Source: Candidatus Latescibacterota bacterium
GTDB lineage: Bacteria > JAAXHH01
Assembly (NCBI GenBank): GCA_022822725.1
Contig: JAJEAN010000001.1
Location: 558,001-622,000, forward strand
Reading direction: 5' to 3'
Length of the DNA stretch: 64,000 nucleotides
The notes under the pieces were generated by a model that worked only from the letters and a program-made list of their open reading frames with translations, did not search any database and was not told where the DNA came from. A program made the position numbers and the translations under genes. Below, in pieces: positions 3,374 to 17,976 of the stretch. Numbering within the stretch: position 1 is the first letter of the stretch; every line of letters starts with the position of its first letter.

Positions 3374-5971
3374 ATGAACTCCATGCGGATCAAACGGCGT
3401 TTTTTTCTGATTCCTTTCCTGGTATGCTGCCTGTCGCCCCTGCACGCCTCGAACGCTCGGCAGGAGACGTCCGTCCAGCAGGAGGTTAACGCGCGGCCGG
3501 AGACGTCCGTCCAGCAGGGGTTGGGCACTCGGCAGGACGGCGATTCCCGCCTGCTCGTCGTCGACTACGCCATGGCCTATCCGGAAGAACACGCCGGGAT
3601 GATCCGCGCGTTCTCGGAAGCGGGGTTCGACGTCGACTACCGGCCGTATTACCCCGCCATGGTGGAACGGGACGCCAGGGATTACGACGCCATCGTGCTG
3701 CTGGGCGGCGGCGATCCGGGCATGAGCATCCAGGAAGTGGATCTGGCCATCAACTTCGTCTCGCGCGGCAAAGTGCTCGTGCTGGCCATGCCTTCTGACG
3801 GACCCTACGGCGAAGGGAGGAAGGTCAATCCCGGCGTCCACGACCGGTACCAGTTCAACGAGGTCCTGGCCCGCCTGAATATCAACCTGCACGCACTGAA
3901 CGCCGACCATGAATCCGGTCCCGTATTGAATCCCGTGGTGCATTTCGAATGGGCTGCCGGCCATCCCGCCGGACAGGGCCTGGAGGGCGGCGTGGCGACC
4001 CGCGCCGGCACCCGCCTGCTCGTGGGCGACGACGCCGAACCGCTGCTCGTGGAACCTGAAGGTCCGCCGCCCGGAGAGGAAATCGAACCCGAACCCGCGC
4101 TCGAACCCGAATACCGCGTTGTCCGCAGGACCCTTCGCATTTCGCCGGACGGCGCGGTGCCGGGGGAAGAGGTCGAGCTGCTGCTGCGCGGCGAACAGGA
4201 ACTGCGGCCCGGTCTGTACTACCGGAACCGGGACCAGCCCGTGCCGGTGGACTGGTCCACGGCGAGATTCAGGGGCAGGGTGGAAGTCGTCTCGGACGCG
4301 AAGGACACGCTGACCGTGCGCATGTCCGGCAACCGCTGGGGATCCGAATACGCGCTGGTCGGCGTTCCGGTGGGGGTGATCGCCGCCGCCTTCGCCGACC
4401 GGGAGATCCGGGAGGAGATCCGGTCCGCCACAGACCTGGCGTCCATGCGGGACGACGAAGAGACCTTCGGCCGCCTGGCGGTAGCGGCCGCGGGACGGAC
4501 CGGACGGCTGAACGAGGGATTCGTACTGGCCGTGGACCGGCAGGTGCTGTCCGGCCTCGACCGGGCCCTGCCGCCCCTGGGCATCTCGCCCGTGGATGCC
4601 GGCCCCGAAGGCCTGGAAGGATTTCTGGGCGGATTCGCCAGGTACGTCCGCACGCTGGCCGATTCCCCGGCGGACTGGTCCCCCGACCACGGGTACGCCA
4701 CGGCCCGGATGCCCGGCAACCGGAAACCGGATATCTCCCTCAACAACGTATCCGTAGCCACGGATGTGCCCGAACGGGTGCGGGTGGTCCATAGCGCGGC
4801 GTCCGGCACGGGCGACGGCGGTGGCGCGGGCTCGGTCACGAACGCGGCCACGAACGTCGAATCAGTCTCCGGCCCGTCCGTCGGCCCGTCCGTCGGCACG
4901 GAGGATGCCGGCACGGAGGATGCCGGCGCGGAGGATGCCGTTCCGCTTCGAGGGGTCTGGGATTTCGTCGCACGGCGGCATGAGCATATGGGCGATCTCG
5001 CCGGCATGCTGCCCGGCCTGGGGATGGATTTCCTCTGGACCGTGGCGTCGGCCTCCAGCTATACCGGGGGTACCGTGGCGACGGGCGACGTGCGCTTCGA
5101 ATCCTGGGCGCAGCCCATTTTAAGCCGCCTGGGGGGCACGCCAACGGCCTGGTACGCCGGCGTAAGCGCCCCGCGCGAACGCGAGATCACCGGCGACTAT
5201 GTATCCGCCCGGGACGCCCGGGGGGACGCGGTCGGCCTGCCCTCCCGGCTGGACATGGCCTACCTGCACCGGCACCTCTTCGAGCCGGCGCGCGCCATCG
5301 CCCGGCACAGCCGCGGCCAGCGGGCCCTGAAGGCCATCGTGCACGACTGGGAGCCCCATATCACGCGCCCCGCCGAGGCCTATGCCGCGACCGACGCCTT
5401 CGACGATCTGCATTTCCGGTACTTCATCCGCCATCTCGTCCGGAACGGACTGTACCACGGCGACGAATTCAGGTCGCTCATGGGGCTGGACCGGGAAGAC
5501 CGGTTCGAGTGGCTGCTGAAATCGGGGTACCTGGAAACCTACATCCAGCTCCAGGAATCCAACGCCGAACGCCTCGGCGTGCTCTACCGGCAGTCCATGG
5601 ACGAAATCAATCCCGTCCTGCGCCACGGCGCCTTCGTGCGCTCCCTGCGGCCGAACTGGTTTCGCCTGGGCTTCTGGCGCGGCGCCGGCACGCCGGAGCG
5701 TCCCTTCCTCGTGTTGTCCTACGAACGTCCACCGGACTGGTACGCCGGCTTCCTGCGCGACAGGGGCGTCTCCGTCCGGGTGATCCCCGTCGGGCTGCTG
5801 GGCCTGATGAGCGGTGAAGATCTGCAGGATGTCTTGCGAAAGGCCGCCGAACGAGGCGGCTACGCCCTTGAGCGCGGCATCTGGCTCGTCGCCGACCCGG
5901 GCGAGGAATCGGGTCTGAACACGCCTCCCGGGGGCTTGACGCGGGAAGCGCTGCTGGAGGCGGTGCGGTAG
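3374..5971 (+). CDS. Large exported protein of unknown function with an N-terminal amidotransferase-like fold
   Basis: The 865-residue product starts with a signal peptide (basic MRIKRR, hydrophobic core, cleavage near LHA-SNA), so it is probably periplasmic or surface-exposed. A start at the in-frame ATG 3383 is equally possible. Residues about 55-190 read LLVVDYA, YDAIVLLGGGDPG and VLVLAMPSDGPYG, which looks like a class I glutamine amidotransferase/ThuA-like Rossmann layer; no catalytic Cys-His pair is evident. The middle is beta-rich. The C-terminal third (WDFVARRHEHMGDL, VHDWEPHI, DLHFRYFIRHLV) looks like a helical or barrel domain I cannot name. Two linkers are built from tandem repeats: around residues 27-55 (ETSVQQ repeated) and about 500-523 (GPSV, then GTEDA three times). 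It stands alone and ends before a strong terminator. Function unknown. Confidence 0.7.
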   Translation: MNSMRIKRRFFLIPFLVCCLSPLHASNARQETSVQQEVNARPETSVQQGLGTRQDGDSRLLVVDYAMAYPEEHAGMIRAFSEAGFDVDYRPYYPAMVERDARDYDAIVLLGGGDPGMSIQEVDLAINFVSRGKVLVLAMPSDGPYGEGRKVNPGVHDRYQFNEVLARLNINLHALNADHESGPVLNPVVHFEWAAGHPAGQGLEGGVATRAGTRLLVGDDAEPLLVEPEGPPPGEEIEPEPALEPEYRVVRRTLRISPDGAVPGEEVELLLRGEQELRPGLYYRNRDQPVPVDWSTARFRGRVEVVSDAKDTLTVRMSGNRWGSEYALVGVPVGVIAAAFADREIREEIRSATDLASMRDDEETFGRLAVAAAGRTGRLNEGFVLAVDRQVLSGLDRALPPLGISPVDAGPEGLEGFLGGFARYVRTLADSPADWSPDHGYATARMPGNRKPDISLNNVSVATDVPERVRVVHSAASGTGDGGGAGSVTNAATNVESVSGPSVGPSVGTEDAGTEDAGAEDAVPLRGVWDFVARRHEHMGDLAGMLPGLGMDFLWTVASASSYTGGTVATGDVRFESWAQPILSRLGGTPTAWYAGVSAPREREITGDYVSARDARGDAVGLPSRLDMAYLHRHLFEPARAIARHSRGQRALKAIVHDWEPHITRPAEAYAATDAFDDLHFRYFIRHLVRNGLYHGDEFRSLMGLDREDRFEWLLKSGYLETYIQLQESNAERLGVLYRQSMDEINPVLRHGAFVRSLRPNWFRLGFWRGAGTPERPFLVLSYERPPDWYAGFLRDRGVSVRVIPVGLLGLMSGEDLQDVLRKAAERGGYALERGIWLVADPGEESGLNTPPGGLTREALLEAVR
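4871..4939 (+). repeat. In-frame 12-bp and 15-bp tandem repeats inside the 3374-5971 gene
   Basis: A 12-bp unit (4871-4882, 4883-4894) is followed at once by three 15-bp units (4895-4909, 4910-4924, 4925-4939; one mismatch). All preserve frame and encode a flexible GPSV/GTEDA-type linker. Confidence 0.9.
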
Positions 5972-6046: not shown

Positions 6047-6075
6047 GCCCGGCGGAACGATCGCCGGGCTTTTTT
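6047..6075 (+). terminator. Rho-independent terminator
   Basis: A perfect 8-bp stem GCCCGGCG/CGCCGGGC (6047-6054 and 6062-6069) has a 7-nt loop and is followed directly by six T (6070-6075). It lies 76 bp after the stop of the 3374-5971 gene and insulates the downstream peptide cluster from read-through. Confidence 0.92.
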
Positions 6076-6334: not shown

Positions 6335-6387
6335 ACGTTCGAAGGATAAACTACACACGTTCGATACACGTTCGTTACACGTTCGAT
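6335..6387 (+). promoter_or_regulatory. 11-bp iteron array upstream of the exported peptide gene
   Basis: Three contiguous 11-bp units ACACGTTCG(A/T)T occupy 6355-6365, 6366-6376 and 6377-6387. A further ACGTTCGA at 6335-6342 lies exactly 22 bp (two units) before the first core. Units spaced by about one helical turn put their cores on one DNA face, as expected for cooperative binding of a regulator. The array ends 30 bp before the peptide start, so it may overlap the promoter or 5' leader. The regulator is unknown. Confidence 0.6.
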
Positions 6388-6417
6388 CAAACCAGCAATT
6401 GAGGAGTACAGATCATC

Positions 6418-6690
6418 ATGAAAAAGCTCATTCTCTCCGTATTCATGTTCGCCCTGATCGCGGGCGCAAGCGTCAACTCGACGGCCAACGCAACGCTGTC
6501 TGAATCGTCCGGTGTCGTAGTGACGCCGAACCTGATCTACTGCCTTTCGGGCGCGGATATAAGAGAGACATCCGCTGGTGCACTGGCAGCAGTAGCCGGT
6601 GGTTGGGGTTTAAAGGCCAGTCTCGGCCTTGCCGCATGCGTAGGACTCACCGCTGGTGGTTTGGTTGCTGGCCTGGCACTCGGTGCTTAG
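6418..6690 (+). CDS. Small exported Gly/Ala-rich peptide, bacteriocin-precursor-like
   Basis: The product has 90 residues. Residues 1-25 form a clear signal peptide (MKK, hydrophobic core, STANA before the cut), giving a mature chain of about 65. A second possible processing site is the double glycine at 61-62, preceded by a leader-like stretch (LSGADIRETSAGALAAVAGG). Cutting there would release 28 residues, strongly hydrophobic and rich in Gly, Ala and Leu, with one Trp at its start. Cys42 and Cys74 could pair. Composition resembles pore-forming class II or circular bacteriocins, and the next gene is of the DUF95/SpoIIM family also found in circular bacteriocin operons. GAGGAG at 6401-6406 is the ribosome site. 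I do not recognise a named family; bacteriocin, toxin or signalling peptide are all possible. Confidence 0.75.
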   Translation: MKKLILSVFMFALIAGASVNSTANATLSESSGVVVTPNLIYCLSGADIRETSAGALAAVAGGWGLKASLGLAACVGLTAGGLVAGLALGA

Positions 6691-6698
6691 GTCCTTAA

Positions 6699-6734
6699 GG
6701 CAAGGAGGAGGGGGCGTTGCGTCCCCTCCTCGCC
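6699..6734 (+). promoter_or_regulatory. GC-rich hairpin after the peptide gene
   Basis: The arms GAGGAGGGG (6705-6713) and CCCCTCCTC (6723-6731) pair perfectly around a 9-nt loop, and outer GGC/GCC can extend the stem past a bulge. No T-run follows. It lies 14 nt after the peptide stop and before the SpoIIM-like gene, so it may stabilise the peptide mRNA or attenuate read-through, giving more peptide than export proteins. Confidence 0.6.
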
Positions 6735-6811
6735 TGAATGGGCATTCGATCCGCCTGATAACACATCGTGGTCGTTAACCATAAACAGAAACAAAAAACC
6801 TGATCTTAACT

Positions 6812-7390
6812 ATGCCGATGAACGAATACCGCCTCAACAAAATACCCTTTCTGCTAGCTGTGTGTTGTATACTTGCCGGCTATGTTATCGGCAAATCGAC
6901 TCCCATAGACACGGGCCCTGCGGGTGCTCCAGAACATGCTGCAGACGCGAACACCCTGCTCCCCCGCGTTTTCCTCGATGGACATGATGAATGGAAATCC
7001 ATCATTGGAACGAATCTGAACGTCTGCACTGTTCTTCTGACGGGAGGTCTATCGCTGGGATTCATGAGCATGGCGAATCTGGCCTGGATCGGTCTGAGTA
7101 CCGGTTGGGTGGTACGGAGTGCGTTGGAGTCCGGCATGTCGTGGGAGAGGGTAGCCGCGCTTACACTGCCACATGGATTGCTGGAACTCGCCGGATTCGC
7201 CATGATGGCGGCCGTGGGTTGCGAAGGGTTCGTCATCGTATATAGAAAGCTGAGATACGATGACTGGTCGTTCAGCTTGGACAGGATCTCATTGAACTTT
7301 CGAAGATTGACGATGGGGCTCTTGCTTGTGCTTGCAGCTTCCTTGGTAGAAACCTACATAACCGGTCAGATCGCGGCCATATTCAATTGA
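6812..7390 (+). CDS. SpoIIM/DUF95-family membrane protein
   Basis: The 192-residue integral membrane protein has an N-terminal helix (IPFLLAVCCILAGYVIG), a soluble loop, then helices around NLNVCTVLLTGGLSLGFMSM, LTLPHGLLELAGFAMMAAVG and a C-terminal helix. The TLPHGLLELAGF motif in a helix and the GLSLG segment are hallmarks of the SpoIIM/DUF95 family. Members occur in Bacillus sporulation and, as DUF95, in circular bacteriocin operons, where they take part in secretion or immunity. Here it follows the peptide gene and precedes a YIP1-like gene by 10 bp, suggesting one transcript. ATG 6818 is an alternative start; no clear ribosome site is seen for either. Role in export of, or immunity to, the peptide is inference. 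Confidence 0.85.
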   Translation: MPMNEYRLNKIPFLLAVCCILAGYVIGKSTPIDTGPAGAPEHAADANTLLPRVFLDGHDEWKSIIGTNLNVCTVLLTGGLSLGFMSMANLAWIGLSTGWVVRSALESGMSWERVAALTLPHGLLELAGFAMMAAVGCEGFVIVYRKLRYDDWSFSLDRISLNFRRLTMGLLLVLAASLVETYITGQIAAIFN

Positions 7391-7400
7391 AGGAACGACT

Positions 7401-8036
7401 ATGCATAATCCTGGTTGGATGGTTGACAGAATCTCATCGATCGGAATGAAGGGGTCCATTTGGATCGGTTTAAGTGTTTTTGTAACCTACCTGATTACTA
7501 ATGTACTGACTGTGCACATGATGTTTCGCTCGATCATAGAACAGCTTCCTGATCAACTGGCCAGTGCTTATGATCAAGTGTTAACGATTATGAGTATCAG
7601 CATGTCGGTGGGGGTCGTATTCGGAGACATCGTCACCTTTATTCTGGGGTGGGCGTTCATTGCCATCGCGGTAATGTTGTTGAACGGCCGACGAAATCAC
7701 CGCGCTTTGTTCGGCTGGTTGAGTATCGGATACTTGCCGCTGGCATTATACTCGGCATGTGCGGTGATGTTCCTGGTGTTGTTCTCCGACGCGATGGCCC
7801 ACAAGGGGTTGACTTCTATCACCACAATAGAAGAGTTGCCCGCTGAAATAGGTAGAATGCAGGATTCGGGCTGGCTTGGATGGGTACGCCTTGGTCGTTA
7901 TTTAGCTTATGGCCTTACCCTCGCGGTTGCCTGCGAAGTGGTACACCGGTTAAGTGCATTGTCCCGGTTGAAGTGCGCCGGGATACTCTCGGCCTACGCG
8001 GGCCTGCACGTGTTCATTACCACGATTCTCTTCTAA
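7401..8036 (+). CDS. YIP1-like multispanning membrane protein
   Basis: The 211-residue protein has about five hydrophobic helices (near residues 20-45, 60-95, 100-125, 160-180, 190-211) and little else. The layout and size fit bacterial YIP1/DUF1282-type proteins, whose biochemical role is unclear. AAGGA lies just before ATG 7401, overlapping the end of the SpoIIM-like gene, so translation is probably coupled. GC content is visibly lower than in flanking housekeeping genes. A second YIP1-like gene occurs at 10227-10958 in the same cluster. Membrane location is secure; family assignment is tentative. Confidence 0.7.
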   Translation: MHNPGWMVDRISSIGMKGSIWIGLSVFVTYLITNVLTVHMMFRSIIEQLPDQLASAYDQVLTIMSISMSVGVVFGDIVTFILGWAFIAIAVMLLNGRRNHRALFGWLSIGYLPLALYSACAVMFLVLFSDAMAHKGLTSITTIEELPAEIGRMQDSGWLGWVRLGRYLAYGLTLAVACEVVHRLSALSRLKCAGILSAYAGLHVFITTILF

Positions 8037-8063
8037 AGAGAAAAGGATAAAAGAGGCGCTGTG

Positions 8064-8996
8064 ATGATTGACCCCAACAACGAAAGAAGCCTCGACGCCG
8101 TCGAAAGTCTGTCGGAGGAAGAGGGAACGATTCAATTGACCTGGCGTGATAAACTGGTCGAGTTTGGATTGGACATGGGCGTAGCGATGGCGTGCATGTT
8201 TCTGGCGGCTTTCGTGTTTGCAGGCGTCTTGCTCGCAACGCTTGACCTGGCTGAAGCATCTGCTCCAGGTCTGTTCGAAAGAGGGTCGATTGCCGTCGTG
8301 GTCCTGATCGTCGTTTCGGCCGCCGTGGGAAACGCCTGCGCATATTTGTGTTTTCCCTATCTTACACGGCTCATTTTCCGTGGTTATGAGTTAAATGATG
8401 ATCGTCTGGAACGGTCGGTCAGGAAATTGCTTGAGGTTACCGGAATGGACATCACAGCAGAGACATTATTCGCCATGAAAGGCAGGATGGCGAACGCAAT
8501 GGTTTCCGGTCTTTTTCGCAAAGCCAGGTATGTTTTCTTTACCGACAAACTGCTGGAGAAAATGAAGGAAGACGAAATCCTGGCGATATTCGCCCACGAA
8601 GTGGCGCATATACGTCACAGGCATTTGTTCAAGATGTTGTTGTCTGGGATTCTGTGGATTTGCGCGATTCAGATCGTTTGGTATCTGATTGATTTCAACG
8701 TCTACTACGATTCTTTGGATGAGTCCCTTAAGATGTGGGCATCCGGTTTGATTGGCGGTGTGAATGTGTGGCTGGCTTTGATCTGTGTCATGCTACCCTT
8801 ATCGAGGCGCAACGAATACGAAGCAGATGCTACCGCGGCCGGATGGGTGGGGGTGGAATGTTACAGTCGGGCCCTTTACCGCCTGCATCAACTGAATGAC
8901 CGAATGAAGTCTCCACGGAAGTTCGCCCGTATATTCCTGACCCATCCCACCTTGCAAGACCGCCTCGATCGCGTTGCACAGTCGAACTCGAAATAG
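8064..8996 (+). CDS. Membrane-bound M48-family zinc metalloprotease (paralogue A)
   Basis: About 310 residues. The catalytic zinc motif is HEVAH in FAHEVAHIRHRH, with the third ligand in NEYEADATAAGW, as in M48 (HtpX/Ste24-like) proteases. Hydrophobic segments near residues 30-55 and 70-95 and two more flanking the loop after HEVAH place it in the inner membrane, with the active site probably on the cytoplasmic face. The chosen ATG is 8 nt after AGAGG; the GTG one codon earlier is too close. It is strongly similar along its length to the protein at 13528-14559 (shared VTGMDI, SGLFRKA, PLSRRNEY, ATHPT/LTHPT blocks). Next to a peptide gene, a maturation or quality-control protease is an attractive role, but this is inferred. 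Confidence 0.9.
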   Translation: MIDPNNERSLDAVESLSEEEGTIQLTWRDKLVEFGLDMGVAMACMFLAAFVFAGVLLATLDLAEASAPGLFERGSIAVVVLIVVSAAVGNACAYLCFPYLTRLIFRGYELNDDRLERSVRKLLEVTGMDITAETLFAMKGRMANAMVSGLFRKARYVFFTDKLLEKMKEDEILAIFAHEVAHIRHRHLFKMLLSGILWICAIQIVWYLIDFNVYYDSLDESLKMWASGLIGGVNVWLALICVMLPLSRRNEYEADATAAGWVGVECYSRALYRLHQLNDRMKSPRKFARIFLTHPTLQDRLDRVAQSNSK

Positions 8997-9033
8997 TTGA
9001 GTTTTAATCAGATGAGAAGGAAACCCCCCTACA

Positions 9034-10236
9034 TTGAAACTTCATCGACTTTTATTTTTAACGGCCCTTTGCGTCCTGCTCGACCTGCGCTTCGCTTCGT
9101 ACGGAGCGGTGCCGGACTCCCTGGCGCTGTCCGAATTCGCCAGGATCATGACCGCGTTCTCCGAAGAACCCGGTCATTTCCCCGGGGACAACTTCGTTAC
9201 CAATGAATCGTCCTACCTGCACGTCGTTCCCACGGTCATCGAACTGGGCAACCGCGGCGGCGTCTATATCGGCGTCGGTACGGAGCAGAACTTCTCCTAC
9301 ATAGCCGCCTCGAGACCGGATATCGCTTTCATCGTCGATATCCGTCGCGAGAACCTGCTTCAGCATCTCCTCTACAAAGCCCTTTTTGCCCTGGCCCGGG
9401 ACCGAACGTCCTTCCTGGCGCTGCTGTTCAGCCGACAGTACCGGGAGGGCGAAACGGCTGTGACCGGACGGCCGGAACGCACGGCCGCCATTACCGGAGT
9501 CCTGGAGTATATCGAAACGTCGACCACGGTCGACTCCCTGGTATTCGAAGCAAACTGGAAACGGCTCCGGCGGGAAGTCAGGCGGTATGGGATCGAAGAA
9601 CGGGACGATCTCGACAAGATGCGTTACATCTACCGGTCGTTCTACGAAAATCAGCTTTCGATCCGGTACGCCGAGACCCGCCTGGGAAACGGCCTGTCCT
9701 ATCCTACGTTCAGGGATCTGATGACAGGAACGACGGTGGAAGGGGAATTCGCCAGTTTCCTTAGTTCAGAAGATGCGTTCAGCTTTGTGAGGAACCTGCA
9801 TCTCAGGAACCTGGTCATTCCCGTCGTGGGTAACTTCGCCGGCAATAAGGCGTTGAGGGCCATCGGCACTTTCGCTGAAGCCCACGGTACGAGCGTGTCC
9901 GTCTTCTACGTGTCGAACGTCGAGTATTTCCTCATAAACCACTTCTACTACATGTTCAAGTGGTACGTCGCGAACGTCGACGCTCTTCCGATCGATGAAC
10001 ATAGCCTGATAATTCGATCCTACCTGGGCGTGGAATCCCATCCAAAAAGAGTCGGCCGGCATCTGTCCACGAGCACGGCGCATCACATCCGCACGTTCCT
10101 GGAGAGTTTCCGCCGGGGTGCATATACCCGTACGAAACCGGTATGGTGGAGGTTCTGGCCCTGGGACAGTCCATTCTGGTCGGGCGGTGGACACAGCTAC
10201 TACCATCTGGTCATCATGGGGGATCTATGTCCTTGA
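9034..10236 (+). CDS. LIC_10091-like protein with a Rossmann/methyltransferase-type core
   Basis: The 400-residue product starts at TTG 9034 and has a hydrophobic N-terminus (LHRLLFLTALCVLL), probably a signal peptide or anchor. The segment SSYLHVVPTVIEL, GGVYIGVGTEQNFSYIAASRP, AFIVDIRRENLLQHLLYKALF is a conserved block I associate with the LIC_10091 family, which looks like a SAM-methyltransferase-type Rossmann fold (GxGxxQN loop followed by an acidic DIRR). Catalytic function is not known to me. It overlaps the next YIP1-like gene by 10 bp, so both are translated from one mRNA. GC rises here relative to the upstream genes of the cluster, so the module may have been assembled from two sources. 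Confidence 0.65.
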   Translation: MKLHRLLFLTALCVLLDLRFASYGAVPDSLALSEFARIMTAFSEEPGHFPGDNFVTNESSYLHVVPTVIELGNRGGVYIGVGTEQNFSYIAASRPDIAFIVDIRRENLLQHLLYKALFALARDRTSFLALLFSRQYREGETAVTGRPERTAAITGVLEYIETSTTVDSLVFEANWKRLRREVRRYGIEERDDLDKMRYIYRSFYENQLSIRYAETRLGNGLSYPTFRDLMTGTTVEGEFASFLSSEDAFSFVRNLHLRNLVIPVVGNFAGNKALRAIGTFAEAHGTSVSVFYVSNVEYFLINHFYYMFKWYVANVDALPIDEHSLIIRSYLGVESHPKRVGRHLSTSTAHHIRTFLESFRRGAYTRTKPVWWRFWPWDSPFWSGGGHSYYHLVIMGDLCP

Positions 10237-10958
10237 GCGCAGCCACAGACCTGGTAAGATACACGGGGCGATGGCTCCAGGTCTTCTACAGGCCGGGGAA
10301 GGCCTTTTCGGATCTTGAATCCGGAGAATCCACTGCCGAGTTGATGTCGGTGCTGATCCTGGTTATGTCGGTCGTCCTTGGCGCCGGTATAGTCACCTTG
10401 CCCGTTGCGCTGGATACGGAACGGGCGTTGATCGAGACCGAGTTCCAGTCCTATCCGGATCTGAGTGCGGATCAGCAGTCCGTTATACTACGCGAGGCCG
10501 TGAAGTTCGACTACCGTCAGCTCATCGGCCTTCTGGTCATGCCCGCCAGCGTCTGCTTCATGGTTGCTGCGTGGTCGGTGGTGGGAAAACACTGCGGTGA
10601 ATTGATATTCGGCAAGCCGCTGCCCTACGGCAAGATCATTCCGATAACCGGCTATGCCTCGCTTGTCCTCGTACCCGAAACCATCGTCAAGACCGCGCTG
10701 GTCTTGCTGTCCGGTTCACTCGATCCCCCCATCCATCCTGGTTGGTTTCTCGGTGATGCGAACCCCGAAACCCTATGGAGCCTTTTCCTGCCGGGTGTCG
10801 ATTTCTTCGGAGCCTGGTTTGTTTTCCTGGTAGGACTCGGCCTGGCACGGACTTTCCGGGGATCGGCGACGCTCGCGTGGCTCGTGCTGGGACTGGTGTG
10901 GGGCATATGGATTGTTATTCGCAGGACGATCGAGCTGCTCGGTACGGTGTACGTGTAG
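10227..10958 (+). CDS. YIP1-like multispanning membrane protein (second copy)
   Basis: The 243-residue protein starts at ATG 10227, preceded by GGGGGA, and overlaps the 3' end of the upstream gene by 10 bp. The N-terminal pattern (VRYTGRWLQVFYRPGKAFSDL) followed by about five membrane helices is typical of bacterial YIP1 proteins. A frame extends upstream to 10143 inside the previous gene but has no ribosome site. The short gap to the MacA-like gene (about 20 bp) suggests one operon with the exporter proteins. Confidence 0.8.
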   Translation: MSLSAATDLVRYTGRWLQVFYRPGKAFSDLESGESTAELMSVLILVMSVVLGAGIVTLPVALDTERALIETEFQSYPDLSADQQSVILREAVKFDYRQLIGLLVMPASVCFMVAAWSVVGKHCGELIFGKPLPYGKIIPITGYASLVLVPETIVKTALVLLSGSLDPPIHPGWFLGDANPETLWSLFLPGVDFFGAWFVFLVGLGLARTFRGSATLAWLVLGLVWGIWIVIRRTIELLGTVYV

Positions 10959-10979
10959 CTTCAGGGAACCACTTTGGTC

Positions 10980-12194
10980 ATGAAAAAACGGTTAGTCATT
11001 GCCGGTGTGTCGGTCTGCGGCCTCGTCGCCGTTCTGCTGTACGTGGTTTTCAGTTCCACGGCTCGGGATGCCACGTTTGAGATCCTCCAGGTACAACACG
11101 GACCGATATCGGAGATCCTGGCGGAGACGGGCACGATTCAGTTCGTCAGGACCGTCATGGTCAAGCCAACGGTTTCCGGGGAAGTCAGACACATTTACGC
11201 CGATGTCGGGGACCGGGTATCAGCGGATGACGTGCTTGCCGTGATAGAGCCGGACCCGTCCCAGTCCCTGCAGCTGTCCCGGCAGCGCGCCCGGGTGGAC
11301 GGCGCCCGGATAGATCTTTCAGAAAGGGCGATGAACTTCGAGCGAAAGCGCGAGCTTTACGAGAGGTCCCTGATTTCGTCCGAGGAATTCGACCAGGCAA
11401 GGATCGCACACACCAGGGCCCGTCACGATCTAGACATGGCGGAGCTGGAACTTCAGATTCTGGAATTGAAGGTAAACGTCGAGGTGGATTCGAACAAAAC
11501 GCATGGTGCCGTACGTGTCCTGTCTCCCCTGGACGGTATCGTCATTGCCCGCGCGGTGGAGGAGGGTGAGGTCGTGGCATCCGGCACCTCTTCGTATACC
11601 GGCGGCACGGAGATGTTCCGGATCGGCGATCCGGACCGGATGATCGTCAAATCGGCCGTTGGAGAAACAGATGCCGGTAGGGTCAGGTCGGGTCAGGAAG
11701 TGTGGATTCGTGTCGATGCCTACCCGGACGCGACGTACCGTGGACGCGTGGAGCGCGTCGCGCCTGTCGGTGTGCGCAGACCCGGCAGCACGCTGGTCAC
11801 TTTCGATACCGAGATCGTGATATCGGATCCATCGAAGGAACTGCAGCAAGGCATGTCCTGCGATATCGACATCGTGGTGGAGAAGAACGACCACTCGGTG
11901 CTGGTGCCCGTTTCTTCCGTCATGGAAATGGTCGACTACCGGGGTGCGTTTATCGAACAGAACGATCCGGCACTAACCGGATCGGCGCCCGTCAAGCGGC
12001 ACATGGTCTATCGTTGCACTTCGGCGGACCCCGAATTGCCGAAGTGTCCGGAAGCGTACTTGGAATCCTCCGTGGTCGAAATCGGTATCGAATCGACCGA
12101 AAACGTGGAAATCCTGTCCGGTATCGAACCCGGCGCGCACATCGCACGGGATGCGAGAGCGGTTCATGCCGCACTGAACGCGAAACACCCTTAA
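10980..12194 (+). CDS. Periplasmic adaptor (membrane fusion protein), MacA/HlyD-like
   Basis: The 404-residue protein has an N-terminal helix (VIAGVSVCGLVAVLLYVVF), then the split biotinyl-lipoyl motif: first half ISEILAETGTIQFVRTVMVKP, second half VRVLSPLDGIVIARAVEEGEVV. A coiled-coil hairpin (about residues 90-165) lies between, and beta-barrel and membrane-proximal domains follow. This is the adaptor of ABC-type (MacB-like) exporters, bridging inner-membrane permease and outer-membrane channel. TTG 10974 is 6 nt after AGGGA and ATG 10980 is 12 nt after; either may start translation. The permease follows 20 bp later. Neither an outer-membrane TolC-like protein nor an ATPase is encoded nearby. 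Confidence 0.88.
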   Translation: MKKRLVIAGVSVCGLVAVLLYVVFSSTARDATFEILQVQHGPISEILAETGTIQFVRTVMVKPTVSGEVRHIYADVGDRVSADDVLAVIEPDPSQSLQLSRQRARVDGARIDLSERAMNFERKRELYERSLISSEEFDQARIAHTRARHDLDMAELELQILELKVNVEVDSNKTHGAVRVLSPLDGIVIARAVEEGEVVASGTSSYTGGTEMFRIGDPDRMIVKSAVGETDAGRVRSGQEVWIRVDAYPDATYRGRVERVAPVGVRRPGSTLVTFDTEIVISDPSKELQQGMSCDIDIVVEKNDHSVLVPVSSVMEMVDYRGAFIEQNDPALTGSAPVKRHMVYRCTSADPELPKCPEAYLESSVVEIGIESTENVEILSGIEPGAHIARDARAVHAALNAKHP

Positions 12195-12214
12195 CCTCAA
12201 GGTTCCTGTCGTCT

Positions 12215-13438
12215 GTGTCCATTACGCACCATATCCAGTCCGTGTTTGCCAATCTCGCGCACTACAGGCTGCGTTCAATCCTGACGCTGCTGGGGATTGC
12301 GGTCGGCATCGGCGCCGTAACCGCCATCATCGCGATCGGCGAAGGACTTCACGACATGGTGATGAAGGAATTCGAATCCGTGCGCGGCGGCACCATGGTA
12401 TGGGTGAGTCCGTCGAAATTTGTAAACCGGGAAGGGCAGTGGATGGCGGTACCGGATTACGAGCATCTCGTCTGGCGGGATGTGCTGGAAATCAGCGGAA
12501 GGTCGAACGCCGTGCGCCAGGTGGTCCCGGCCGCGACATTGAACGCGGAGCTCAGGTACGCGAAAATGTCCTATGGCGGGATTATATACGGCACGACGCC
12601 AACATTCCCGGACCTGTACCAATGGCCGGTTACCACGGGCCGGTTCATAATCGACCGCGACGTAGTACGCTGGCGCAAAGTATGCGTGCTGGGCGATGAA
12701 TTGGCCGCCAAGCTGTTTGACGATGCCGACCCGGTCGGCGAGGAAGTGAAACTGAATGGCCAGCGGTTCGCCGTGATCGGCGTTATGGAGCCCAAGACCG
12801 TTTTCAATGAGAGCTGGGGAAACCGGGTCTTCGTTCCGATTACAACGGTCCAGAAACGGATGCTCGGCCATGAAGGCTTCGATCTTCTGTCCATCAAGGT
12901 GGCGGATTCGCGTGTGATGGAAAGTGCGGTGGGCGACATCGAGGCAGCCTTGAAGTCTGTCCATGGTGATGAGGCCGGATTCGACATCGTCAGTGGGAAA
13001 GACGCCATGGACCAGATCGGAGGTGTGATCAACGCCGTTAAATCTTCGATTGCCGCCTTAGCGGGCATCTCGCTGTTGGTGGGTGGAATCGGGATCATGA
13101 ACATGATGCTGGTCTCCGTCACTGAACGGAGGCGGGAAATAGGCATCAGGAAGTCTGTAGGGGCGAGACATGTCGATATCGTGAACCAATTTACGCTGGA
13201 AGCCACCTGTATCAGTGCGTTAGGCGGGTTACTGGGGATATCGCTGGGACTGGGTCTCGGTTCGGTTTTCTCGTTGGTCTTGAATCAGGTGTGGGATCTT
13301 GCCTTCACGAGCGGAGCTTCGGTATCGAATATCCTCGTGTCGCTGGCGATTTCACTGGCCATAGGTCTTTGCGCCGGAATCTATCCGGCCTTTAAGGCAT
13401 CGCAGCTGAGCCCGGTGGATGCGATGAACCAGGAGTGA
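12215..13438 (+). CDS. MacB/FtsX-type ABC transporter permease without an ATPase domain
   Basis: About 407 residues from GTG 12215; the frame is open much further upstream, but only inside the adaptor gene. The N-terminal helix (LRSILTLLGIAVGIGAVTAI) precedes a periplasmic MacB core domain (about 45-260), then three C-terminal FtsX helices with GISLLVGGIGIMNMMLVSVTERRREIGIRKSVGAR, the conserved FtsX motif. Full-length MacB carries an N-terminal ATPase domain; here it is absent, so a separate LolD/MacB-type ATPase is needed, and none is encoded in the window. Together with the adaptor it would form a tripartite exporter or mechanotransmission complex. Export of the 6418-6690 peptide is a reasonable but unproven guess. 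Confidence 0.88.
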   Translation: MSITHHIQSVFANLAHYRLRSILTLLGIAVGIGAVTAIIAIGEGLHDMVMKEFESVRGGTMVWVSPSKFVNREGQWMAVPDYEHLVWRDVLEISGRSNAVRQVVPAATLNAELRYAKMSYGGIIYGTTPTFPDLYQWPVTTGRFIIDRDVVRWRKVCVLGDELAAKLFDDADPVGEEVKLNGQRFAVIGVMEPKTVFNESWGNRVFVPITTVQKRMLGHEGFDLLSIKVADSRVMESAVGDIEAALKSVHGDEAGFDIVSGKDAMDQIGGVINAVKSSIAALAGISLLVGGIGIMNMMLVSVTERRREIGIRKSVGARHVDIVNQFTLEATCISALGGLLGISLGLGLGSVFSLVLNQVWDLAFTSGASVSNILVSLAISLAIGLCAGIYPAFKASQLSPVDAMNQE

Positions 13439-13527
13439 GGTCGAATACTCATTCTGTATTTTTCGCAGGCCTGAGGCGAACAAGCAAAAACCCGAGCGGA
13501 TCGGCTGCGGAACGCACCAACCGCGTA

Positions 13528-14559
13528 CTATCCAAGGCTCCCCACCCGCTCCAGTCTCTCCTGCAACGTCGGATGGGTGCCTAGTTTCGCCAGGAACTTC
13601 CGCGGCGGTTTCAGCTGGTCGTTGATTTGATACAGCCGGTAAAGGGTTTGCTTGTACAGGTCCGTACCCACCCACAGGGCGGCGGTCGCGTCCGCCTGGT
13701 ACTCGTTCCGCCTCGAAAGCGGGAACAGGACGAGGAACATAAGCAAGTATAAGTTAGCTAAGTTTATCCCTAAATATACTCCCATTTTCCAGGGTTCTTC
13801 GAGCGAATCGAAGTAGGCATAGTAGTCGATCTGACTCAGGAATACCTGGAAGACGAGGGTCCATATCAAGAGGACCAGGAATATCATGGGCATGTGCCGG
13901 TGCCGCGCATGGGCCAGTTCGTGCGCCAGGGCCGCCATGATCTCTCCTTCGCTCATTCGCTCCAGAAGCCTTTTCGTGAAGAAGATACATTGTGCCTTGC
14001 GGAAAAGGCCGGACACGACGGCGTTGGCCGTCTTGCCATTTATGGCGTAGATCTTTTCGGCCCTGATATCCATCCCGGTCACTGATATCAGGTGCTTCAC
14101 GGCGCGGTCCATCCGATGGTCCCGCAACTCGTTGCCGCGATAGAGTAGACGTATGATGTAGGGCGCGCAACAGAACGAACAGGCATTGCCTATGGCCACG
14201 GCCACGACGATCAGGACGATAAACGGAATCGATCCCGCCTCCGTGGATCCCGGCGCCAACTCCTCCAGGGTACTGCGCAAGGCGATTATAGCAGCAAAGA
14301 CGACCAACACCCCGATCAGCGTACCGACCATGGCCATGACCATCGTCAGGCCACCTTCGACCAGCTTCTCGCGCCAGTTCAGCCGGATCGTATCGTCAGT
14401 GGCCTGGTCCGCCTGCTGCGGGCCGTCCACCCGGTTCGCCTGGTCCACCTGGACCGTACGATTCGTCTTGAGCGGTCCGTCGGCACGTGTCTGCTCGTCC
14501 GCGTCTTCGGCAGGGGGTCGCTCGTCTTCCTTTGGATAGTCTTGTCCGGCATTTTGCAC
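13528..14559 (-). CDS. Membrane-bound M48-family zinc metalloprotease (paralogue B)
   Basis: About 343 residues from GTG 14559, which has GGGAGG 6 nt upstream; a longer frame to 14634 lacks such a site. A hydrophilic N-terminal tail of about 60 residues, rich in Asp, Gln and Glu, is unlike paralogue A. After it come two helices, VTGMDI, SGLFRKA, the zinc motif HELAH in LAHELAHARHRH, two more helices and the NEYQADATAALW glutamate ligand. Similarity to 8064-8996 is continuous, so the two arose by duplication. It is convergent with the permease gene (about 90 bp apart) and closes the accessory block. The substrate is unknown. Confidence 0.9.
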   Translation of the reverse strand: MQNAGQDYPKEDERPPAEDADEQTRADGPLKTNRTVQVDQANRVDGPQQADQATDDTIRLNWREKLVEGGLTMVMAMVGTLIGVLVVFAAIIALRSTLEELAPGSTEAGSIPFIVLIVVAVAIGNACSFCCAPYIIRLLYRGNELRDHRMDRAVKHLISVTGMDIRAEKIYAINGKTANAVVSGLFRKAQCIFFTKRLLERMSEGEIMAALAHELAHARHRHMPMIFLVLLIWTLVFQVFLSQIDYYAYFDSLEEPWKMGVYLGINLANLYLLMFLVLFPLSRRNEYQADATAALWVGTDLYKQTLYRLYQINDQLKPPRKFLAKLGTHPTLQERLERVGSLG

Positions 14560-15045
14560 GTTTAACCTCCCACTGTGCGCATCAATGAAGGATTGGAAGC
14601 CAGGACCTTGCTTCCGGTGCCCGGATTCAGGCATTCCGTCTGTGTAAATTAGATTCGATTAAGTATATTGCCATGAAAGACAAACGTGTGCAAGATTAAA
14701 TTCAAACTGGACTTCGGTAGATGCGCTTTCTCCACTCGTTTCCCGTCCGTCGGGATTCGCCCCGGTCGCTCACCCGGGCGATGCTGATGTCCACGCTTCG
14801 CCAGGGACGGCGGAATGCGAGGCCTGCAAGGTGTGGAACAAAAAAACACGCGAACAATTCAGTGTCCTGTGTTTATATTCAACGTGTATTGGCAAATAGT
14901 GGAGGCACCCATACGGGTAGGCGGGTAAGGGGGCGTCGGGTAAAAAGTTGTCGGGTAAAGGGGTTGGCATCCAGGGACGGGTGACCGTTTGTCCCGGACG
15001 GCGCCCGGTTTGTTTCCTCACTGAACCAGGAAGGTAGTATCACCA
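14560..15045. other. 486-bp intergenic region with a 15-bp repeat
   Basis: This gap separates divergent genes. The first 150 bp are AT-rich and probably hold the promoter of the minus-strand protease. Around 14920-14964 there are about three 15-bp units, with GTCGGGTAAA at 14935-14944 and 14950-14959. I see no convincing gene, tRNA or terminator; a frame at 14721-14984 has atypical composition and no ribosome site. Confidence 0.45.
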
Positions 15046-15549
15046 GTGAAATGGACCACGGCGAAAGCCATCGTCCTCCTTCCGGCGGCGGCTACGATCT
15101 ACGTCCCGGGCCTGATACTGTGGGTATTGGCCGATACACCGGGCGCGCTTTCGCCGGCGGAACCTCACCAGTTCCGCTTCTGGATCGGGATCGCGATGGC
15201 GTTGGACGGCCTGGTCGTGGCGGCGTGGACCATGGCGCTGTTCGACCGGATCGGGAAGGGCACGCCCGCGCCGTGGGCCCCGCCCGAGAAGCTGGTCGTC
15301 CTCGGTCCCTACCGCCACGTGCGCAATCCCATGAATTCGGGCATGCTGCTCATACTCGGCGCCGAAGCCCTGCTCTTCGGCTCATGGCACCTGGCAGGCT
15401 GGATGTGCGTGTTTTTCGCGGTGTGCGCGATCTACTTCCCGTTCTACGAGGAACCGGGCCTCGAGCGCCGGTTCGGTGAACCCTACCGGCAGTACAAGGC
15501 AAGCGTACCGCGCTGGATTCCGAGGATACGGCCGTGGGAAGGGCCGTGA
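15046..15549 (+). CDS. Isoprenylcysteine carboxyl methyltransferase (ICMT)-like membrane methyltransferase
   Basis: The 167-residue membrane protein has about four hydrophobic helices and the C-terminal signature of the ICMT/PEMT superfamily: GPYRHVRNPM, then EEPGLERRFGEPYRQYKASVPRWIPR. In the family these motifs build the SAM site and the methyl acceptor is a lipid or prenyl group; bacterial members are mostly uncharacterised. The GTG start at 15046 has AGGAAGG about 10 nt upstream. It is followed 31 bp later by a small unknown gene. Confidence 0.88.
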   Translation: MKWTTAKAIVLLPAAATIYVPGLILWVLADTPGALSPAEPHQFRFWIGIAMALDGLVVAAWTMALFDRIGKGTPAPWAPPEKLVVLGPYRHVRNPMNSGMLLILGAEALLFGSWHLAGWMCVFFAVCAIYFPFYEEPGLERRFGEPYRQYKASVPRWIPRIRPWEGP

Positions 15550-16000: not shown

Positions 16001-17314
16001 ATGGACAGGAAATCCGGTGGCCTGACGCTTCTGTTTTCAGGGAGCGGCTTCCTCATTATTACGCTTTTGGGCTTATCGCTCACAGCCTGCGGCCCTTCCA
16101 CTGAACAGCCTGTTGTCGCGTCCGACTGCGTGGTCTGCCACCAGGACGCCACCCCCGGCATCGTTACGGACTGGGAACTCAGCACCCACAGCACGAATGG
16201 CGTGGACTGCGTGATGTGTCACGGCGGCGATCACCGCACGGAGGAGGACGCGCACCTGGCCGGGGTCGCCACGCCCGACGTGTGCGCCACGTGCCATCCC
16301 ATCCAGGTGGAGCAGTTCGCGGGAGGCAAGCACGCCCTCGCCTGGGCCAGCATGAACGCCATGCCGACGACCCACTTCCTGCCCATGGCCCTGACCGAGG
16401 GCATGAAGGGCTGCGGCGGATGCCACCGCATTGGCCTCAAGACCGAAGAGGAAATCAAGACGATCAAGGCGCAAGACGGACTGTTCGGCTTGTCGTCCTG
16501 CGACGTCTGCCACACCCGCCATCTCTTCTCGGTGAAAGAGGCCCGGGAGCCCCAGGCGTGCAGGACGTGCCACATGGGATTCGACCATCCCCAGTGGGAG
16601 ATGTACGCGTCGTCCAAGCACGGCGTGCGGCACCTGCTCAAGCAGAACGGCACGCTGCCGGAGCACGCCCAGGCGCCGACGTGCCAGACCTGCCACATGC
16701 CCGAGGGAGACCACGGAGTCCGTACCGCGTGGGGGTTCCTGGCCGTCCGGCTGCCCCTGCCGGAAGACCCGCAGTGGGCGGAGGACCGGGTCACGATACT
16801 GCAGGCGCTCGGCGTATTGGACCCGGAGGGCAACCCCACGCCTCGCCTGGAGGTGGTCAGGCAGGCCGACGTGGCCCGGCTGACCCAGGAAGACTGGCAG
16901 CGGGAGCGCGACCGCATGACCGGCATCTGCGAGCAATGCCATTCGGAGAATCTCGTGCGGGCGGAACTCGAAAAGGGCGACGAGATGATCCGCGAGACCG
17001 ACCGGCTCCTGGCCGAGGCCATCCGCATCGTCTCCGCGCTTTACCGGGACGGCATACTGGTCCGGCCGGCGCACTATGCCTACGACTTTCCCGATCTGCT
17101 GGCGTTCCACGACGCGCCTTCGATGATCGAACAGCGGCTCTTCAGGATGCACCTGGAACACCGCATGCGGGCGTTCCAGGGGACCTTCCACAACAATCCG
17201 GATTACGCGCTGTGGTACGGCTGGAGCGAAATGGTGCAGGACCTTGCCGAAATCAGGGCGCTCGCCGGGGAACTTCGTGAAGACGCTTCGCAACGGGGAA
17301 CGGAGCCGAACTGA
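16001..17314 (+). CDS. Octaheme c-type cytochrome lipoprotein, hydroxylamine oxidoreductase (HAO)-like
   Basis: A 437-residue protein with a lipoprotein signal (LLGLSLTAC, Cys27) and eight CxxCH haem sites in order: CVVCH, CVMCH, CATCH, CGGCH, CDVCH, CRTCH, CQTCH, CEQCH. The C-terminal helical part (HLEHRMRAFQGTFHNNPDYALWYGW) is typical of the HAO family. HAO members oxidise hydroxylamine or hydrazine, or run in reverse as hydroxylamine/nitrite reductases. The adjacent NapC/NrfH-type quinol dehydrogenase suggests electrons enter from quinol, favouring a reductive role as in epsilonproteobacterial HAO. Whether the P460-type Tyr crosslink is present cannot be decided by eye. Anchoring by lipidation is unusual, since classical HAO is soluble. 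Confidence 0.88.
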   Translation: MDRKSGGLTLLFSGSGFLIITLLGLSLTACGPSTEQPVVASDCVVCHQDATPGIVTDWELSTHSTNGVDCVMCHGGDHRTEEDAHLAGVATPDVCATCHPIQVEQFAGGKHALAWASMNAMPTTHFLPMALTEGMKGCGGCHRIGLKTEEEIKTIKAQDGLFGLSSCDVCHTRHLFSVKEAREPQACRTCHMGFDHPQWEMYASSKHGVRHLLKQNGTLPEHAQAPTCQTCHMPEGDHGVRTAWGFLAVRLPLPEDPQWAEDRVTILQALGVLDPEGNPTPRLEVVRQADVARLTQEDWQRERDRMTGICEQCHSENLVRAELEKGDEMIRETDRLLAEAIRIVSALYRDGILVRPAHYAYDFPDLLAFHDAPSMIEQRLFRMHLEHRMRAFQGTFHNNPDYALWYGWSEMVQDLAEIRALAGELREDASQRGTEPN

Positions 17315-17349: not shown

Positions 17350-17976
17350 GTGGCCGGATTGACCGGATTTACCGTCAGTCTCATCTTCCTGGCGGCCGTC
17401 ACGCTCGCCATGATCGCGGTGGTCCTGAGGCGGCCCGAACTCACCGCCTCGGCCGGCGGCATGATATTCGCCTTTTTCACGTTTTTCGTGCTGCCCGGTG
17501 TGGCGCTGCTCGGAGGTACCGTTCAACACTACGAGCAGGCCAAGTCGACCGAGTTCTGCGTCTCCTGCCACATCAACCAGCCCTTCAGAGAGAGCCTGTA
17601 TATCGACGACGGGCGGTTTCTGCCCGCCGCCCATTTTCAGAATAAGCGCATCCCCGCCGACCGCGCCTGCTACGCCTGCCATTCCGACTACACCATGTTC
17701 GGGGACGTGGACGACAAGATCCGGGGCGTGCGGCACGTCTGGCACAACGTCTGGGGGACCTGGTCGGAGCCTGTCGCGCTATACGAGCCTTTTGAGAACA
17801 CGGCCTGTCTCGAATGTCACGCGGGCGCGCGGTCGTACGAGGAGCATCCGGACCACCGGCCGTATCTTCGCGAGCTCATTGACGGTTCCAGGTCATGCGT
17901 AATGTGCCACAACCTCGTGCACGAGGTGGACAAGCTGGATCGGTTCGGCAGATGGGAACCGGAGGCGGGAGAGTGA
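17350..17976 (+). CDS. Tetrahaem NapC/NrfH-family quinol dehydrogenase
   Basis: The 208-residue protein has N-terminal hydrophobic helices (about 5-25 and 35-58) and then four CxxCH sites (CVSCH, CYACH, CLECH, CVMCH). NapC/NrfH proteins take electrons from membrane quinol and hand them to a periplasmic multihaem reductase; the obvious partner is the octahaem protein 35 bp upstream. NrfH usually has one membrane helix, so the second hydrophobic stretch is slightly unusual. The GTG start (17350) follows GGAGC. No nrfA or napA gene is present in the window. Confidence 0.9.
   Translation: MAGLTGFTVSLIFLAAVTLAMIAVVLRRPELTASAGGMIFAFFTFFVLPGVALLGGTVQHYEQAKSTEFCVSCHINQPFRESLYIDDGRFLPAAHFQNKRIPADRACYACHSDYTMFGDVDDKIRGVRHVWHNVWGTWSEPVALYEPFENTACLECHAGARSYEEHPDHRPYLRELIDGSRSCVMCHNLVHEVDKLDRFGRWEPEAGE

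Follow-up and report, generated by a model that had tools for sequence, protein, structure and literature searches.

What does a gene for a small exported peptide do at the head of a long run of genes for membrane and export proteins? The question is raised by a locus in a 3.8 Mb genome (G000) assigned to Candidatus Latescibacterota; the window analysed here is the whole 64,000-nucleotide stretch around it. A preliminary description took the locus to be a dedicated peptide system, in which a 90-residue precursor with a signal peptide stands at the head of seven closely packed membrane or export genes and a paralogous M48 protease gene closes the block. All nine ORFs were found at or near the positions given there (Table 1), except that the second YIP1 gene starts near 10230 and not at 10143. 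The first M48 gene may begin at 8061 (GTG) or at 8064 (ATG).

Table 1. Features of the peptide block, in window coordinates (cassette and backbone as explained in the text)
Feature	Position	Strand	Group	Evidence or remark
Intrinsic-terminator-like hairpin with T run	6047..6069	+		Divides the block from the 865-aa gene before it
Peptide precursor, 90 aa	6418..6690	+		Signal peptide ~1-25; pro-region 26-42 ending PNLIYC; core 43-90
Hairpin, 12 bp	6705..6731	+		Stable; directly after the stop codon of the peptide gene; window z -3.1
SpoIIM/DUF95 membrane protein	6812..7390	+	Cassette	PF01944, 5e-13
YIP1-like membrane protein 1 (YIP1-1)	7401..8036	+	Cassette	Yip1 profile
First M48, HtpX-like membrane metalloprotease, HEVAH	8061..8996	+	Cassette, minus last ~20 codons	PF01435, 1e-27
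DUF7790/LIC_10091-like exported protein	9034..10236	+	Backbone	PF25046, 1e-37
YIP1/YknW-like membrane protein 2 (YIP1-2)	10230..10958	+	Backbone	Profile searches
MacA/YknX-like periplasmic adaptor	10974..12194	+	Backbone	HlyD/RND adaptor; TIGR01730, 6e-38
MacB/YknZ-like FtsX permease without ATPase domain	12215..13438	+	Backbone	MacB_PCD and FtsX
Second M48 protease, HELAH	13528..14634 (start codon uncertain)	-	Backbone	PF01435, 7e-23

SpoIIM scores 49.6 bits against PF01944 (gathering cut-off 26.9), and the two M48 proteins, which are ~50% identical to each other and both carry HExxH, score 97.5 and 81.9 bits against PF01435 (cut-off 20.3), which places all three in these families. YIP1-1 is hard to assign alone (Yip1, E 0.04), and nine of its 12 orthologues match Yip1, the best at 7e-5. 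YIP1-2 matches Yip1 at E 3e-6 (best orthologue 4e-11) and, weakly, the YknW family (E 1e-5). The match of the DUF7790 protein to the LIC_10091 model (E 3e-19) lies far below that model's cut-off.

In keeping with the preliminary description, profile searches detected no tailoring enzyme (lanthipeptide, radical-SAM RiPP) and no C39 peptidase-transporter among the block genes. The block had also been credited with a MacAB-like exporter. An adaptor and a MacB-type permease are present, but the ORF list and profile searches gave no ABC ATPase gene in the block, so the exporter as encoded there is incomplete. Nor does the block include a small immunity protein. Elsewhere in the genome there are 54 ABC_tran matches, none of them tied to the peptide system; a stand-alone ABC ATPase (L113) was checked and set aside, as it adjoins its own permease.

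In every congener the stop codon of the peptide gene is followed by a hairpin of ~12 bp, whose stem sequence differs between the two cassette types described below; in G005, which has two tandem peptide copies, it stands 3' of the second copy only. No Rfam family was matched. Hairpins in this position frequently govern how much of an abundant peptide is made relative to the products of the downstream genes, and this one may do so.

The neighbouring gene upstream (window 3374-5971) encodes an exported protein of 865 aa that matches nothing in Pfam, and it precedes the block in all congeners (in G002 just its 3' end is visible). On the other side the block adjoins a phospholipid/isoprenylcysteine methyltransferase-like gene (15046-15549; PEMT, E 2e-10), which also follows the block in several relatives. 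Beyond this are genes for a multihaem (CxxCH) cytochrome c (16001-17314) and another haem-motif protein (17350-17976).

Distribution and the precursor peptide

This SpoIIM gene is present in every one of the 12 species of the genus and in G013, which represents another genus of the same family; three further genomes of the phylum lack it. The peptide gene precedes it in 13 of 13 cases. In G013 the peptide match is weak (E 0.02), yet an ORF is in place before SpoIIM; the flanking genes differ there and no MacA/MacB genes follow. The preliminary description would have been undermined by a peptide missing beside most SpoIIM/YIP1/M48 clusters; within the phylum the opposite was found.

A SpoIIM profile run over 384 genomes (mostly one per family) gave, beyond the home phylum, only weak partial matches within longer proteins; a pattern scan of the GTDB collection hit no other group than this one, and a SpoIIM scan of viral contigs and plasmids returned nothing. 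In the collections searched the system is thus confined to one little-known phylum. The close relatives are metagenome-assembled genomes that bear the labels Candidatus Latescibacterota, Gemmatimonadetes or uncultured bacterium; judging by the isolate names, they appear to stem from marine or sponge metagenomes. SpoIIM-linked peptides are hereby extended to an uncultured, probably marine lineage.

The precursor consists of a Sec-type signal peptide, a short pro-region and a hydrophobic, neutral, Gly/Ala-rich core. In the motif PNxxYC that ends the pro-region, Pro37 and Cys42 are invariant in 13 of 13 aligned precursors, Tyr41 is replaced by Leu in two and Asn38 by Gln in one. The core is 48-57 residues long across the relatives, with a GRAVY of ~0.8-1.3 and 33-52% Gly plus Ala. 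In all genus members Cys42 is followed by Leu or Ile, and every precursor ends in a hydrophobic residue. None of the 13 precursors matched a bacteriocin model of Pfam or NCBIfam. A match to the lipoprotein model NF050142 (E ~0.01) spans only that end of the precursor which holds the signal peptide, and was set aside. The AlphaFold model of the peptide (pLDDT 51) is helical, of low confidence, and too poor for a fold search.

Is the core conserved, as had been suggested for checking? Among six A-type species purifying selection acts on the signal peptide (pN/pS 0.13) and PNxxYC is kept, but the Gly/Ala-rich core diversifies (0.85); all other genes tested lie at 0.18-0.35. Residues 26-42 vary at a core-like ratio (0.83), so the shared part of the leader is the signal peptide plus PNxxYC and not every leader residue. 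Since the overall ratio stays below 1, these values suggest diversifying selection on the core but fall short of proof.

The core and three neighbouring genes are exchanged as one cassette

Among the species of the genus SpoIIM, YIP1-1 and the first M48 fall into two types, A and B, that are 41-63% identical to each other. The backbone proteins (DUF7790, YIP1-2, MacA, MacB) are mostly 78-94% identical to those of the window across the genus, the lowest value being 68% for YIP1-2 of G003. The peptide core, SpoIIM, YIP1-1 and the first M48 are exchanged between species as a single cassette, an observation that goes beyond the preliminary description.

The edges of the cassette can be read from a comparison of G008 with its sister species G002. 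The two are ~98-99% identical just upstream of the peptide gene and identical at 114 of 114 nt from its start through codon 38; identity then drops to ~40-70% from codon 39 through the core, SpoIIM, YIP1-1 and most of M48, and resumes at ~91-95% with the last M48 codons and onward. In G011, likeness to A-type DNA ends after codon 43, one codon beyond the invariant Cys42. These breakpoints are unlikely to stem from chimeric assembly, because reading frames are intact across them and each type is carried by several independent genomes.

Tree comparisons bear out the exchange. On the cassette data, AU tests reject a grouping of G008 with its sisters in the backbone tree (p 1e-43) and one of the window genome with G005 (p 1.5e-4). 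On the backbone data they reject G008 with G003 (p 1e-3), and also the window genome with the other A-type species when G005 is excluded (p 4e-5). Two further AU tests were not significant: one on the backbone that joined G013 and all B-type genomes in a single clade (p 0.11), and one that grouped G008, G003 and G011 on a 9-genome set (p 0.12). The tree of the upstream 865-aa protein also differs from the cassette tree.

The idea of a dedicated peptide system gains from three of these results: the peptide beside SpoIIM in every relative that has this SpoIIM, the fast-evolving core, and its joint movement with SpoIIM, YIP1-1 and the first M48. The idea that the whole block is one specific unit had to be given up, since DUF7790, YIP1-2, MacA, MacB and the second M48 make up a conserved backbone, and paralogues of DUF7790 occur elsewhere in the phylum.

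Could the peptide instead be a small structural or regulatory membrane protein in a quality-control or stress module built of HtpX-type proteases, SpoIIM, YIP1 and a YknW-type pump? As housekeeping membrane proteins, HtpX-like M48 and YIP1 proteins are common, and the low-confidence helical model of the peptide would suit such a role. SpoIIM and YIP1 proteins are also found in non-bacteriocin membrane systems (PMC5898192), which weighs against a bacteriocin-like reading. Housekeeping structural proteins, however, do not as a rule keep their leader and replace their body together with three neighbours, and a core pN/pS several-fold above that of the signal peptide and the neighbouring genes is unusual for one. 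We regard a stress module as very improbable.

Signalling or kin-recognition peptides could likewise show a fast-evolving core and cassette exchange. The cassette would then encode the processing and perception of a pheromone, and a conserved leader, a variable core, exchange with cognate membrane proteins and the single invariant Cys42 all agree with this. The block, however, contains no histidine kinase, RRNPP-type receptor or regulator, and the core is long, very hydrophobic and Gly/Ala-rich, which brings it nearer to a membrane-active peptide; a pheromone seems unlikely to us.

Likeness to circular bacteriocins and other exported peptides

Clusters for circular bacteriocins comprise a precursor, SpoIIM, a transporter and hydrophobic proteins, to which Yip1 and an accessory MacAB-like pump are often added; the enzyme that removes their leader and closes the ring has long been sought (PMC8659200, PMC8534725). 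Hydrophobic C-termini, Yip1 genes and M48 genes in two group-1 clusters have been described (PMC8659200). The window block resembles clusters such as those of enterocin AS-48 and cerecyclin in having a small hydrophobic precursor beside SpoIIM/DUF95, a Yip1 protein and an adaptor with a MacB-type permease; tandem precursors occur at times in these clusters too, as do M48 genes in the two group-1 cases. The AS-48 cluster of plasmid pPD1 encodes a precursor, SpoIIM, ATPases, an adaptor and a permease, with no M48 and no DUF7790. The window permease is 26% identical to its permease (E 8e-27), and the SpoIIM proteins show a weak profile match (E 0.0018). YIP1-2 does not match the small protein at the YIP1 position of the AS-48 cluster, and the AS-48 and window precursors have no similarity.

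There are differences as well. SpoIIM/DUF95 stands beside the precursor, but the precursor is unrelated to those of circular bacteriocins, with its long Sec-like leader and the invariant Pro37 and Cys42 of PNxxYC, and the block has neither a dedicated ABC ATPase nor a small immunity gene. Two M48 genes and DUF7790 are added, core, SpoIIM, YIP1 and M48 are swapped as a cassette, and the host lies outside the Gram-positive bacteria. The earlier statement that the block fits no classical bacteriocin or RiPP class is softened by the strong parallel in layout (PMC8659200, PMC8534725), although the precursor matches none of the known circular bacteriocins. On this comparison the peptide system appears to work like a circular bacteriocin, without being filed as one.

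A true head-to-tail circular peptide would be a special case of the bacteriocin-like system proposed below. The M48 protease, as leader peptidase, would cut after Cys42, and a membrane complex containing SpoIIM would join Leu43 to the hydrophobic C-terminus. The layout, the weak SpoIIM match to the AS-48 cluster and the hydrophobic residues at both ends of the core in all genus members speak for this, as does the core itself, neutral, hydrophobic and Gly/Ala-rich like those of subgroup ii; hydrophobic C-termini, Yip1 genes and, in two group-1 clusters, M48 genes are also reported for circular bacteriocins, whose leader peptidase is still being sought (PMC8659200). Against it stand the want of any sequence match to circular bacteriocins and of a dedicated ABC ATPase, and the mostly Gram-positive hosts of the known members. 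Both the circularity and the cut at Cys42 are putative. The core is also shorter than the 58-70 aa of known circular bacteriocin cores. We consider circularity possible, though doubtful.

Two other systems are instructive. YknWXYZ is the SDP toxin efflux pump of Bacillus (PMC4887032). Like it, the block has a Yip1 protein, an adaptor and a MacB-type permease (YIP1-2, MacA, MacB). It differs from YknWXYZ and AS-48EFGH in that the ATPase (YknY) gene is absent, and from YknWXYZ also in sitting with a peptide gene and SpoIIM. The class II microcins of Gram-negative bacteria (colicin V type) are Gly/Ala-rich hydrophobic peptides with adaptor-dependent export, both features recalling the window block; the window precursor, however, has no double-glycine leader, and no C39 peptidase-transporter was seen in the block.

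Proposed roles of the two halves

We propose that the block probably makes a bacteriocin-like peptide, with cognate maturation or immunity genes and a core-independent half for export or efflux; antimicrobial activity of the peptide is presumed. Exchange of a core in one block with its partner genes is the usual behaviour of bacterial weapon and immunity genes, though possible also for recognition peptides. The conserved signal peptide would take the precursor into the Sec pathway, PNxxYC would mark the junction between the pro-region and the variable 48-57 residue core, and the core may act in or on membranes.

Because SpoIIM, YIP1-1 and the first M48 are exchanged only with the core, they are expected to recognise it, and as the core-specific half they are candidates for peptide maturation, producer self-protection or both. 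The cut made by the first M48 probably falls close to the PNxxYC junction, and cyclisation may go along with it. Natural recombination has shown which genes travel with the core, and this makes SpoIIM, YIP1 and M48 testable candidates for core recognition, cleavage and immunity. DUF7790, YIP1-2, MacA, MacB and the second M48 would serve any core alike, in export or efflux immunity, as is expected of a pump or an immunity transporter; the pump may be powered by an ATPase encoded elsewhere. More tentatively, the system may represent a new class of Gram-negative ribosomal bacteriocin, with its M48 leader peptidase in the cluster and core, SpoIIM, YIP1 and M48 as a swappable specificity unit for toxin, maturation and immunity.

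DUF7790 was also considered as a peptide-specific enzyme, a role set aside as unproven because its paralogues stand in unrelated contexts. Its AlphaFold model (pLDDT 37) was not good enough to search for similar folds. A second DUF7790 gene lies outside the block (G000:C9:717547-718554; L108:5461-6594) and is found in the other genomes of the phylum too, where its neighbours vary. The protein has a conserved VYIGVG...D pattern that looks like that of a Rossmann or methyltransferase-type fold, and PDB 6ulo is distantly related to it (E 1e-12). In G011 (contig C20; L112:6879-7154, minus strand) a 91-aa ORF has a signal peptide and ends in a Cys-rich tail (HASGFCALGYC...CGPGCSS). Next to it stand a DUF7790 paralogue and a MacB-type FtsX permease, which gives a second arrangement of peptide, DUF7790 and permease.
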